Positions 17,050 to 21,629 of a stretch of DNA of 64,000 nucleotides are shown here, in pieces. The position numbers and the translations under genes were made by a program. This DNA is from Mangrovicella endophytica (GTDB lineage: Bacteria > Pseudomonadota > Alphaproteobacteria > Rhizobiales > Rhizobiaceae). The stretch is taken from positions 682,001 through 746,000 of the forward strand of contig NZ_PKMZ01000001.1 in assembly GCF_002893625.1 (NCBI RefSeq), in the 5' to 3' direction. The number at the start of each line of letters is the position of its first letter. Within the stretch, counting starts at the first letter, position 1. Under the pieces are notes generated by a model. The model was not told the origin of the DNA. It made no database searches and was given only the letters and a program-made list of their open reading frames with translations.

Positions 17050-18080
17050 GCATCACGGCGCCAGAGCCCGTTGCGCCACCTCGCCGCCCGGGGCGCCGCA
17101 TGAGCCGCGCAGCCCAGCGCAGTCGTTCGCTCGTTCTCGTGCCGCCGGAAGGCGTGCCGCTGCACCTTTCGATCCCGACGCTCGGCGCGCGCATCGGCGC
17201 CCAGATCATTGATCTCATCATCACCGGGCTTCTGACCGCAGCTCTCGTCTACGCCCTGGTTTTCGTCGAGGTCATTCCGGGCGAGGCGGTGGTGGCGCTG
17301 ACATCGCTCGTCTCGCTGCTGGCGGGAACGCCGCTCTACATCCTGTTCGAGCTCCTGATGAACGGGCGCACGCCCGGCAAGCGCCTGCTTGGCATCCGCG
17401 TCGTCTCACTGGATGGAACCGGCCTCACCACGCATCAGGTGGTGGTGCGCAACCTCCTGAAGGAGGTGGAGGTGCTCGTCCCGATCCAGGTGCTGCCGGC
17501 GGTCTTTGTCGGCTCGCCGCTCGCCTTCGTGGTCCTCGCCTGGACGATTGCGGTCGTGGTCGTCGTCTGGCGCAGCCGCGCTCATCAGCGCATCGGCGAC
17601 TTCGCGGCCAATACGGTCGTCGTGGAGCAGCCCTCGGCCGAGCTGCAGCCCGATCTCGCAATGGTCAGCGAGACTGCCGCGGAGGAAGCCGTCGTGGAAA
17701 CGGCGGAGCGGTACGTCTTCACCACCGGCCAGCTCGACCTCTACGGCGCCTACGAACTGCAGGTCCTGGAAAAGCTGCTGCGCACTAAGACACCCGCGCC
17801 GGGTGAGCCGCCTTCGCAGGCGCTTCTCGACGTCACCGCCAGCATTCGCCGCAAGATCGAGTATCCCGATCCGGTGCCGGACGCAGAGGCGGCGGATTTC
17901 CTGCTCGCCTTCTACCGCGCCCAGCGCGCCTTCCTTGAGCAGAAGAAGCTCTTCGGCGAAGCGCGCGACGACAAGTTCCACCGGGATGCAGCGGCTGGAG
18001 AAGCAGCCGGCGCCCCGATCCGTCCGGGTGCTGCGACCGATCCCGTCATATCAAACGCAGATAAGGAAAGGCAGAGATGA
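17046..18080 (+). CDS. RDD-family membrane protein
   Basis: The protein has 344 residues. The RDD domain occupies about 40-190: LGARIGAQIIDLIITGLL contains the Arg and Asp, NGRTPGKRLLGIRVV is the central loop, and the closing motif is RIGDFAANTVVV. The remaining roughly 150 residues form an uncommon soluble C-terminal extension rich in acidic residues and predicted helices (about 215-310), ending in a low-complexity tail. RDD proteins are thought to be small-ion transporters or scaffolds. Overlaps of 4 bp with both neighbours place it firmly in the operon. Confidence 0.9.
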   Translation: MSITAPEPVAPPRRPGRRMSRAAQRSRSLVLVPPEGVPLHLSIPTLGARIGAQIIDLIITGLLTAALVYALVFVEVIPGEAVVALTSLVSLLAGTPLYILFELLMNGRTPGKRLLGIRVVSLDGTGLTTHQVVVRNLLKEVEVLVPIQVLPAVFVGSPLAFVVLAWTIAVVVVVWRSRAHQRIGDFAANTVVVEQPSAELQPDLAMVSETAAEEAVVETAERYVFTTGQLDLYGAYELQVLEKLLRTKTPAPGEPPSQALLDVTASIRRKIEYPDPVPDAEAADFLLAFYRAQRAFLEQKKLFGEARDDKFHRDAAAGEAAGAPIRPGAATDPVISNADKERQR

Positions 18081-18904
18081 CGATCGTTGATACCGCCGCG
18101 CCTCTCGACGCGCGGCCGCGTCCGCCCCTCGGCGTGCGGGTCCTCATGGAGCGGACGTTCCAGCTCCTGAAGGCCGCCTTCCTTCCACTGGTCGGCACGT
18201 GTCTGGTCTACTTCGTGCTGGTGCAGATCGGCACCATCTTCGTGACGCCGCAACTACTCGGTCTGGGCATCCAGCCGATGCCCGTGGATGACGCAATCAG
18301 TACCGGCGCGACTCCCATTCAGATTGTGATCGGCGCAGCAGGCTTCCTGGTCGCCTTCCTCGTCTTCTCCGTCTTCTACGGCGCAATGCTGGACATCGCG
18401 CTGAAACGTGACGCCGGCGAGCCCGCCAATTTCGGATCCGCCGTGGGCAAGGGCTTTCGCTTCACGGTTCCGATGTTTCTCGCGTTCATCGTCCTCGCCA
18501 TTCTGATCGCTCTTGGCCTTATGGCATTTGTCGTGCCGGGCATCTGGCTCATCGGCGTCTACGGTCTCGTTCCCGTCGTGATGATCGCCGAGAACCGCGC
18601 GCGGGGCGTGCTCGGCCGTACTCGCAAGCTGACCAAGGACTATCGCTGGCCGCTCATTGGCTTCTTCGCGCTGCTCTATGTGGCGCTCTTCGTCATCAGC
18701 TTTCTCGTCGGTGTGATCGCGGCGCTCATCACTCCCAATCTGACCAACATGACGCAGATCATTATTCGCAGCCTCCTGATCGATGCGCCGGTCGGCGCCA
18801 TCACGACGGCCCTCCTCATTGCAGGCTTCGCTGTAGCCTATCGCCGCATGATCGAGATCAAGGAAGGCGACGGGACCGACGCGCTCCGCACGGTGTTCGA
18901 GTGA
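18077..18904 (+). CDS. Multi-pass membrane protein, paralogue A
   Basis: The 275-residue protein has about six hydrophobic helices and no enzyme motif. The C-terminal half carries GRTRKLTKDYRWPLIGFF near residue 176 and ends IKEGDGTDALRTVFE. Both blocks recur in the next gene, so the two are tandem paralogues. The N-terminal cytoplasmic lead (GVRVLMERTFQLLKAAFLP) resembles the entry of glycerophosphodiesterase-associated membrane domains, but I do not assign a family. It overlaps the RDD gene by 4 bp. Confidence 0.8.
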   Translation: MTIVDTAAPLDARPRPPLGVRVLMERTFQLLKAAFLPLVGTCLVYFVLVQIGTIFVTPQLLGLGIQPMPVDDAISTGATPIQIVIGAAGFLVAFLVFSVFYGAMLDIALKRDAGEPANFGSAVGKGFRFTVPMFLAFIVLAILIALGLMAFVVPGIWLIGVYGLVPVVMIAENRARGVLGRTRKLTKDYRWPLIGFFALLYVALFVISFLVGVIAALITPNLTNMTQIIIRSLLIDAPVGAITTALLIAGFAVAYRRMIEIKEGDGTDALRTVFE

Positions 18905-18932: not shown

Positions 18933-19727
18933 ATGACGATCGCCGATACATCGCTGCCTGGCGCCCGCGTGCGCTTCGGCGTCTTCGCCCGGCTCAGAGA
19001 GGTCTTCGCCCTCGTTTTCAGGCGCCGCCCGGGCATCTTTATCGGATTCAGCCTGCTCCTGTTCCTCGGCCTTCCCATGGCTCTCGGCGCGGCGGCCATC
19101 GGTGTGCTGGAATTCTCCGACCCGGAGCAGGCACTGTCCAACACGAACACCGAAGGGACGATCGCCGCGATCGGCGGCTTTCTGGCGCTGGTCATCTGGC
19201 TTGTCGGCGCGGGCGTCCTGACGCTCGCCGGCTGCGACGAGATGGCGGGCCAGAGGCGCAGTCTCGGGACCTATTTCCGCCAGACCATCAGGCGGCTGCA
19301 CGTCATCTTCATCCTCGGTCTGCTCGCCTCGTTGGCGGTGATGGCCGGCTTCTTCCTGATCGGCTTCGTCGGCCTGTGGGCTGCGGCGGTCTACAGCGTT
19401 TTCATGCCGGCACTTCTTTGGGAGGGGGCCGGCTGGGGCGCCCTTGGCCGCAGCCGCCGGCTGACGAAGGAATACCGATGGCCGATCATGGGCCTGATCT
19501 TCCTGATCTATCTCGCCTTCATCGCGCTCTTTGTGCTCGTTTCGCTCACCATCGGCACGGTGCCGGAAGAGAACGAGACCGCCTTCATCATCGCCAGCCT
19601 TATTCCGATCGTGCTGCAGGTCCTGTTCATCCCGATCTTCTGCGCCCTGCCGCCGGTCGTGCATGCACGGCTGAGGAGCCTCAAGGAGGGTGACTCCAGC
19701 GCTGAGCTCCGGTCGGTGTTCGAGTAG
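18933..19727 (+). CDS. Multi-pass membrane protein, paralogue B
   Basis: The 264-residue protein shares its layout with the preceding gene. It has GRSRRLTKEYRWPIMGLIF near residue 171 and the tail LKEGDSSAELRSVFE, matching the blocks of paralogue A. It has about six helices and no catalytic motif. A GAGGAGAGGG ribosome site precedes the ATG after a 28-bp gap. It is the last gene of the MoxR operon, and a stem-loop lies 120 bp downstream. Function is unknown; a heteromeric membrane complex with paralogue A is a reasonable inference. Confidence 0.8.
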   Translation: MTIADTSLPGARVRFGVFARLREVFALVFRRRPGIFIGFSLLLFLGLPMALGAAAIGVLEFSDPEQALSNTNTEGTIAAIGGFLALVIWLVGAGVLTLAGCDEMAGQRRSLGTYFRQTIRRLHVIFILGLLASLAVMAGFFLIGFVGLWAAAVYSVFMPALLWEGAGWGALGRSRRLTKEYRWPIMGLIFLIYLAFIALFVLVSLTIGTVPEENETAFIIASLIPIVLQVLFIPIFCALPPVVHARLRSLKEGDSSAELRSVFE

Positions 19728-19909: not shown

Positions 19910-20515
19910 TCACTGCGTTCCGCGGATCGTTCCCGCGACGATGACGTCGACGAAATCACCGATCTCGACAGCAAGCCTTTCTCCCGAAACGCCGACGAAG
20001 CGTTCCTCGACCGAGGTCGAGACGATCCCGTGGATCGCGCCGAACATGGTGCGAGCGCGAAGCGCGAGCATCTCCTCCGGCCAGTCGGGCCTGAGCGCAC
20101 GCAAGGGCTCGACAATATGCAGCAGGAGTTCCCCCTGCTCGGCGAGATGCCAATCCGGCATCGGGCGTCCCGACGCGTATCGGTATTCGAACAGGGCCGA
20201 CCATAGCGAGCGATTGGCCTGCGCGAAGGCGAGGTATGTTAAGGCGAGCGCCCTCAGGGCCCGTCCCGGTTCGCGCTCGCCCGCCACACCCTCACTGAGT
20301 TCGGCGCGCAGACGCGCCAGCGTGCGCGAGTTGACGTGGACCACCACGTCGTCGAGGTCGCTAAAGACGTTGTAAAGGCCGCCGAGCGCGGCTCCGGCAT
20401 CGGCCATGACGTCCCGTGCCCGCAGCGTCGCCGCGCCGCCCGCGACGATGCGCGCCTCGGCGGCCGCGAGGATACGATCCTTAAGCGCTTGGCGCCGGTC
20501 AACTGGGTTCACCAT
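19910..20515 (-). CDS. TetR/AcrR-family transcriptional repressor
   Basis: The protein has 201 residues. An N-terminal helix-turn-helix at about 12-58 (ILAAAEARIVAGGAATLRAR, then ALGGLYNVFSDLDDVV) is followed by an all-helical ligand domain. It diverges from the pspA-yiaA-acyltransferase operon. Three copies of TGAAC-N3-GTTCA fill the 96-bp spacer, the nearest starting 15 bp before its ATG, so autorepression and control of the divergent operon are very likely. The ligand may be a lipid or membrane-active molecule, given the target genes; that is inference. Confidence 0.93.
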   Translation of the reverse strand: MVNPVDRRQALKDRILAAAEARIVAGGAATLRARDVMADAGAALGGLYNVFSDLDDVVVHVNSRTLARLRAELSEGVAGEREPGRALRALALTYLAFAQANRSLWSALFEYRYASGRPMPDWHLAEQGELLLHIVEPLRALRPDWPEEMLALRARTMFGAIHGIVSTSVEERFVGVSGERLAVEIGDFVDVIVAGTIRGTQ

Positions 20516-20527
20516 CCGTACCTCACG

Positions 20528-20595
20528 AATGAACGACGTTCATTTTCGCCTTGAACCATGTTCATGCCTGTGCTCTAGATGTTGAACAACGTTCA
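20528..20595. promoter_or_regulatory. Three TGAAC-N3-GTTCA operators between tetR and pspA
   Basis: The inverted repeats are TGAAC-GAC-GTTCA (20530-20542, extended to 17 bp as AATGAACG-A-CGTTCATT at 20528-20544), TGAAC-CAT-GTTCA (20552-20564) and TGAAC-AAC-GTTCA (20583-20595). Their centres are 22 and 31 bp apart, that is about two and three helical turns. The third copy ends 16 bp before the pspA ATG. This is the size and symmetry expected for TetR dimers, and the array covers both divergent promoters. Confidence 0.88.
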
Positions 20596-20611: not shown

Positions 20612-21301
20612 ATGTGGAAACAGTTCATCGCCCTGGCTCGAGGGCAGCGATACGAGGCGGCCACTGCCGTTCTCGACTCGAGCGCGCATGTAATCCTGCG
20701 CCAGCAGATCCGCGATGTCGCGGCGACGCTGGAGCGCGCCCGTCTCGCCGTCGCTGTCGTGGTGGCGCAGGAGCGGGAGGAGGAGCGGCGCTCCGCGGCG
20801 CTCACCTCTCGGATCGCGGATCTCGAGGAGCGGGCGGTCGCGGCCCTCGACGGAGGGCAGGCCGCTCTCGCGCGCGAAGCGGCCGAAGCGATCGCCCGGC
20901 TCGAAACGGAGCGAGCGTCGGCCGACGAGGCTAGGACGGCGCACGCGGGCGAGATCGCCCGGCTGCGCCTGCTGGTCGCGGATGCCGAAGGGCGTCTCCT
21001 GGCCCTGCGCCGTGGCCAGCGCCTCGCGGAAGCGACGGGGCGCGTCGGACGTCTGCGCCATACCGAGACCGGCGAGGTGACGGCCAGCCTTCGCGACGCG
21101 GAGGCCACGCTGCGGCGGCTGCGCGAGCGGCAGGGCGAGGCCGAGGCGATCGATCGCGCGTTGGACGAGATGGCCGCCGAGGCCGATCCGGCCGCGCTCT
21201 CGCGCAGGCTTGCCGAGGCCGGCTGCGGCGCTCCGCTCCCCCATAGCACTGACGCCGTGCTGAAGCGCCTCGACGAGCGCCGTCGCTCGACCGGCGCCTG
21301 A
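20612..21301 (+). CDS. PspA/IM30-family phage-shock-like protein
   Basis: The 229-residue protein is almost entirely alpha-helical coiled coil, rich in Ala, Arg and Glu. The opening MWKQFIALARGQRYEAATAV followed by ILRQQIRDVAATLERAR matches the membrane-binding helix and first helices of alphaproteobacterial PspA. Such proteins polymerise on damaged inner membrane and protect it. I use the ATG at 20612 because a GAGG site sits 8 bp upstream; an ATG at 20579 would place coding sequence over the third operator. The gene is first in an operon repressed by the divergent TetR. Confidence 0.85.
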   Translation: MWKQFIALARGQRYEAATAVLDSSAHVILRQQIRDVAATLERARLAVAVVVAQEREEERRSAALTSRIADLEERAVAALDGGQAALAREAAEAIARLETERASADEARTAHAGEIARLRLLVADAEGRLLALRRGQRLAEATGRVGRLRHTETGEVTASLRDAEATLRRLRERQGEAEAIDRALDEMAAEADPAALSRRLAEAGCGAPLPHSTDAVLKRLDERRRSTGA

Positions 21302-21347: not shown

Positions 21348-21629
21348 ATGAGTGAGACCTATACCCCTAAGCAGTCATCCGCCTGGAAGAGCTTCACCAT
21401 CGTCAGCTTCATCGTTGCCGCCACGATGATGGCGGGCGGTATCTGGTCGCTGGAAGCGAGCTTCGCCGCCAAGGGCTTCTACGCCATGGCGTCGCTGATG
21501 CTCGTCCACACTGCCATCTCCGTCACCAAGATGATGCGCGACGAGGAAGAAGCGTCCCGCTTCCATAACCGCCTGGAGGAAGCGCGCACCGAACGGCTGC
21601 TGATGGGCGTGGAGCGCCGCGCCGATTGA
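21348..21629 (+). CDS. YiaA/YiaB-family small inner-membrane protein
   Basis: The 93-residue protein has two hydrophobic segments at about 16-35 (FTIVSFIVAATMMAGGIWSL) and 40-58 (KGFYAMASLMLVHTAISV), then a charged tail. The spacing and the SAWKSFTIVSF opening fit the YiaAB domain. Its biochemical role is not known. It lies 46 bp after pspA, with GGAG upstream of the ATG, in the same TetR-controlled unit, which links it to membrane stress or lipid repair. Confidence 0.88.
   Translation: MSETYTPKQSSAWKSFTIVSFIVAATMMAGGIWSLEASFAAKGFYAMASLMLVHTAISVTKMMRDEEEASRFHNRLEEARTERLLMGVERRAD

Follow-up and report, generated by a model that had tools for sequence, protein, structure and literature searches.

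The control of pspA in bacteria that lack PspF, PspB or PspC is, to our knowledge, poorly understood. In the canonical Psp response of enterobacteria, pspA is under the control of PspF and sigma-54, and PspA works with PspBC. The genome of Mangrovicella endophytica raises this question, as profile searches, in which positive controls were detected, found neither PspB nor PspC in this genome and in five relatives. Its single PspA/IM30 gene lies in the window analysed here, a stretch of 64,000 nucleotides of contig NZ_PKMZ01000001.1, and faces a divergent tetR gene across a gap of 96 bp. The reading that we consider best, with a probability of roughly 85%, is that three inverted repeats in this gap are operators of the adjacent TetR protein, which would repress tetR and pspA-yiaA-aas and be released by a ligand under envelope stress, as an alternative to PspF/sigma-54 and PspBC. 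The features of the locus, in window coordinates, are as follows.

19910-20515, minus strand: tetR, TetR/AcrR-family protein with a TetR_C_33 (WHG) ligand domain, predicted repressor
20530-20542: O1, candidate operator, TGAACGACGTTCA, 14 bp 5' of the tetR start codon, with the same position and arms in relatives
20552-20564: O2, candidate operator, TGAACCATGTTCA, left arm and preceding T giving TTGAAC, the proposed pspA -35
20583-20595: O3, candidate operator, TGAACAACGTTCA, over the proposed pspA transcription start, directly 5' of the ribosome site
20551-20579, plus strand: proposed pspA promoter, TTGAAC, 17 bp, TCTAGA (weak -10)
20612-21301, plus strand: pspA, PspA/IM30 (ESCRT-III-like) protein
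21348-21629, plus strand: yiaA-like gene, two-helix YiaAB-domain inner-membrane protein
21701 (or 21719)-25078, plus strand: aas fusion, MFS (LplT-like), PlsC-type acyltransferase and acyl-ACP/AMP ligase

The gap is filled by three exact TGAAC-N3-GTTCA dyads, the only ones in the window, of which O1 sits within a 17-bp palindrome (AATGAACGACGTTCATT, 20528-20544). Their centres at 20536, 20558 and 20589 are spaced by 22 and 31 bp; the original prediction had described three matching dyads with these spacings between divergent genes, and all three are present as described. When the gap was shuffled 20,000 times with its dinucleotides preserved, three dyads with the same arms never arose. Base composition predicts 1.2 exact sites for the whole genome, or 2.7e-5 per 100 bp. 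With two mismatches allowed, matches show no enrichment across the window (15 against 13.3 expected), hence only exact sites were counted. A near match at 20499 (TCAACTGGGTTCA), inside tetR, was put down to chance.

The protein encoded by tetR carries PF13305 (TetR_C_33) as its C-terminal ligand domain (41 bits, cut-off 26.8). In its AlphaFold2 model (pLDDT 95.7), helices 4-26, 33-39 and 44-50 form the three-helix DNA-binding domain, with the recognition helix at 44-50. Palindromic dyads beside the regulator's own gene, as looked for in this family, are present as predicted operators. The closest solved TetR structure has a Z score of 22.8; this is 3CJD (YP_510936.1, a TetR protein of Jannaschia sp. 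CCS1), 37% identical over an alignment of 182 residues, which groups in the regulator tree with co-directional tetR-pspA loci. It is a structural-genomics entry without reported function or ligand, and a literature search with thin coverage of subscription journals found no paper on it. The assignment of the other three products to PspA, a YiaA-like protein and a lysophospholipid-recycling fusion, made in the original prediction, holds by domain and equivalog profile scores. PspA matches PF04012 over residues 2-223 (75.2 bits, cut-off 33.9) and stays below the cut-off of the canonical PspA equivalog TIGR02977 (17.8 bits, cut-off 242.95). The YiaA-like protein matches PF05360 (51.7 bits, cut-off 26.6) and does not reach the cut-off of the E. 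coli YiaA model (34 vs 150). The fusion, 1,125 residues long, matches PRK06814, 'acyl-[ACP]--phospholipid O-acyltransferase', over residues 8-1112 with 1567 bits (cut-off 1349).

A strict consensus promoter scan of the window did not detect the pspA promoter, which we propose, from sequence, to be a putative sigma-70-like one. The T before O2 is kept in 82 of 82 loci, giving TTGAAC throughout, and Rhizobium relatives have a CATAAC-like -10 element 17 bp after it. Together, the invariant T and the CATAAC element at 17 bp fix the promoter and thereby place O3 over the start point. As the operators flank the promoter on both sides, TetR might bind the dyads and activate the pspA operon, or regulate it in both directions; we regard this as improbable, since in nearly all loci O2 lies on the -35 and O3 on the start point, which is a geometry of steric repression. 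In five loci (L194, L217, L218, L223, L226) the middle dyad is missing, with O1 and O3 spaced by 56-57 bp; L194 has TTGACG, a better -35, in place of that dyad.

To follow the layout beyond this genome, a profile built from ten orthologous regulators was used, which found 192 relatives in named genomes; the best 80 were fetched, and these 80 loci, being the best regulator matches, are heavily weighted to Rhizobium. At a loose cut-off, 127 of 385 genomes of the class had profile matches, and with one divergent member of the family as query 74 of 397 genomes of the order were matched. The nearest named relatives are Antarcticirhabdus (77% identity) and Aureimonas (72%), which places the window in or near the Aurantimonadaceae. 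The exact triple is kept in 82 of the 86 loci inspected, with invariant arms, an O1-O2 spacing of 21-24 bp (23 bp in 64 loci, 22 bp in 16) and an O2-O3 spacing of 31-36 bp; the central triplet favours purine-N-pyrimidine. Each of the 80 loci from named genomes has two or more exact dyads next to tetR, and within 6 kb pspA is found in 77, yiaA in 78 and aas in 71. Eight loci seemed to be free of dyads (L024, L039, L046, L053, L057, L060, L084, L087), which proved to be an artefact of stop-to-stop reading frames; the triple is present.

Gene content varies, mostly between pspA-yiaA-aas and pspA-yiaA, and the same dyads occur at loci with aas only (e.g. L098, L100, L244) or with yiaA-aas (L101, L245). 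Hence the sites usually follow the regulator, not the target genes. Among distant homologues, some retain between one and three dyads with different genes as neighbours, and the dyad is absent from L170, L174, L177-L179, L184 and L190. Four distant regulators (L171, L172, L182, L192) have one exact TGAAC dyad near aas, in divergent or co-directional arrangement, which suggests an old tie to aas. On the 311-kb plasmid pAU20c of Aureimonas sp. AU20 (NZ_CP006370.1, L133), tetR and pspA-yiaA with the triple occur with no adjacent aas fusion.

The residues of the regulator that are expected to read the dyads were located by a gap-free alignment, made by eye, against the known TetR sequence. R34, L44 and Y48 align with R28, Q38 and Y42 of TetR, in which, of all side chains, only those of Arg28 and Gln38 hydrogen-bond operator bases, at +2 and +3 (PMC7102968). 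All aligned regulators have Arg34, and base pair 2 is likewise constant. The co-variation of residue 44 with the half-site was scored wherever symmetric sites were present: Leu44, Val44 and residues other than Asn pair with TGAAC, and Asn44 with TGAGC or AGAGC, i.e. with base pair 3 changed. On the regulator tree, in which L184, L191 and others form long branches, two origins of Asn44 are needed; the second Asn44 clade contains L198, with imperfect GAGC sites only. In the f27 family, loci with an Asn44 regulator often retain TGAAC at the middle site, which may be kept there for its second role as the -35. Paralogues in this family are split, the regulator with Asn44 and TGAGC facing pspA-yiaA and that with Val44 and two TGAAC dyads facing aas. 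Such a second Val44 regulator, with TGAAC dyads exactly 30 bp apart, was found in the seven f27 genomes whose second locus was read, plus G421 (L185/L186). The pair is as expected from a duplication after which the two specificities separated, and illustrates how two TetR circuits may avoid cross-talk. The pairing of Asn44 with GAGC also offers a ready test of TetR recognition.

The proposed link of the TetR protein to the operon thus gains support from phylogenetic footprinting and from regulator-operator co-variation with two independent origins. Judged from sequence comparison, the pairing of regulator and operator appears strongly supported, and a control link between the dyads, tetR and the pspA operon very likely. 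That the dyads work in RNA, as hairpins of a leader transcript, is suggested by the position of O3 near the pspA start. The arms have just 5 bp, O1 lies outside the pspA transcript, and the three copies are alike and co-vary with a DNA-contacting residue, which makes this reading exceedingly improbable.

Arms like those of TGAAC-N3-GTTCA are not confined to one TetR family, and the dyads could belong to another, wider regulator, with the neighbouring TetR as a bystander. A genome-wide search for the site, named in the original prediction as the way to define the regulon, bears on this. The 4.43-Mb genome contains five exact dyads, three within 66 bp at the locus and two elsewhere, both in coding sequence, one within an SDR-type gene (L020) and the other within nusG (L021). 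The five close relatives compared have 1-7 exact copies off the locus, and in the genomes studied in detail this seems to be the only locus that the exact sites serve. With so few exact copies besides the triple in most genomes examined, with sites that usually stay with tetR when the target genes change, and with site and TetR residue 44 changing together twice, a wider regulator is very unlikely. Copies with one mismatch number 17 in this genome, in excess of the 5 of a reversed control, and weak extra targets may lie among them. Two genomes have many more exact copies. In Mesobacterium pallidum (G453, genome of L090) there are 69, concentrated on some of the contigs, where the reversed pattern occurs once in the genome; many of the examples fetched (L149, L151-L164) read CTGAAC-N3-GTTCAG and most lie within long reading frames. 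As their centres differ from the R-N-Y of the operators, a large regulon in this genome was set aside and the copies treated as a different feature. The 22 exact copies in G044, spread over many contigs, are mostly of a single sequence (TGAACCAAGTTCA / TGAACTTGGTTCA) and probably represent a dispersed repeat.

Published expression data are available for an orthologous locus. In R. tropici CIAT 899, the regulator is encoded at 1469762-1470316 of pRtrCIAT899c, with the triple (L132), and this replicon has a single PspA-family gene, at 1468965-1469636; because it is the sole one there, RTCIAT899_RS28825 was taken to be the orthologous pspA. This gene showed a log2 fold change of 4.87 when cells were grown at pH 4.5 and of 4.42 after 45 min at pH 4.5, and the adjoining RS28820 one of 4.46 at pH 4.5 (PMC5936775), which corresponds to a rise of roughly 20-30-fold for both genes at this pH. 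The regulators named there as differentially expressed include RS28830 (TetR), the main text giving no value for it (PMC5936775). The joint rise of pspA and the next gene with a changed tetR would also fit activation by TetR, the improbable reading considered above. The acid induction, which may be indirect, agrees with a response to stress on the membrane or envelope. The locus also identifies a group of genes that acid induces in root-nodule bacteria. In R. leguminosarum 3841, RL1106, annotated pspA and, judged by its number, likely the pspA of L033, is listed among the genes required for attachment to roots at pH 7.0 (PMC11406972).

Taken as operators of the adjacent repressor, the dyads would be bound by TetR dimers on O1 (beside the tetR start), O2 (on the pspA -35) and O3 (on the pspA start point), and this occupancy would repress tetR itself as well as pspA-yiaA-aas, as the positions and the usual mode of action of TetR proteins suggest. 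Under envelope stress, for which acid is one inducing condition in R. tropici, a ligand would free TetR. PspA might then stabilise the inner membrane, the YiaA-like protein would be made as well, and the fusion would flip and re-acylate lysophospholipids. The functions of PspA and of the fusion, and the role in membrane repair that we infer for the operon, are drawn from family knowledge.

The nature of the ligand allows another reading. DesT, FadR and FasR sense fatty acid or acyl-CoA, and QacR senses foreign amphiphiles. All four are among the structural neighbours of the regulator, and the aas fusion is the only target in several lineages, both of which would agree with a correct pairing and a ligand other than a damage product, either a metabolic fatty acid/acyl-CoA signal or foreign amphiphiles, the operon then serving lipid turnover or xenobiotic defence. 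We regard this as a real possibility that falls short of even odds: neighbours at 12-22% identity cannot tell the ligand, and the presence of PspA in most loci together with acid induction points to membrane stress. The locus most likely encodes a local, autoregulated TetR repressor of a putative PspF-independent membrane-maintenance operon. With aas alone as the target in several lineages, a lipid-derived signal is more attractive than a PspA-specific one, and a shared switch that ties PspA to lysophospholipid recycling suggests what damage is sensed. A bolder and rather doubtful proposal is that TetR is a cytoplasmic sensor of a product of membrane damage, a lysophospholipid or a co-freed fatty acid; that in many alphaproteobacteria such a ligand-gated repressor stands in for PspF/PspBC and ties an ESCRT-III-like membrane stabiliser to the re-acylation of lysophospholipids; and that the change from Leu/Val44 to Asn44 is a natural specificity switch which lets paralogues part.

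The proposed circuit shares with TetR/tetO and with QacR-type repressors a divergent repressor gene and 13-bp inverted repeats over both promoters, autoregulation being predicted here, and with TetR/tetO also, by alignment, the base-contact residues corresponding to R28, Q38 and Y42. It differs in having three spaced operators where tetO has two, and membrane-maintenance genes as targets where TetR and QacR-type repressors control an efflux pump. With the canonical Psp system it has a stress-induced PspA/IM30 protein in common, as seen from the R. tropici orthologue, but a sigma-70-like promoter with TetR-type sites takes the place of the sigma-54 promoter, and the operon adds the YiaA-like protein and the Aas fusion. 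The same three activities are present, by domain content and a PRK06814 equivalog match, as in E. coli lplT-aas, here combined in a single fusion whose gene is linked to pspA-yiaA and placed behind TetR-type operators. The terms 'TetR', 'YiaAB' and 'acyltransferase' are all missing from the main text of PMC11237479, a survey of PspA partners published in 2024, and a search of the literature outside RegPrecise, with thin coverage of subscription journals, found no paper on an association of PspA, YiaA and TetR. The layout, conserved in many alphaproteobacteria, is apparently undescribed as a switch for membrane maintenance, and its operators, promoter geometry and specificity residue would give one concrete, widely conserved answer to how pspA is controlled. 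Directly downstream of tetR, two neighbouring genes (18077-18904 and 18933-19727) encode membrane proteins that are similar to each other.
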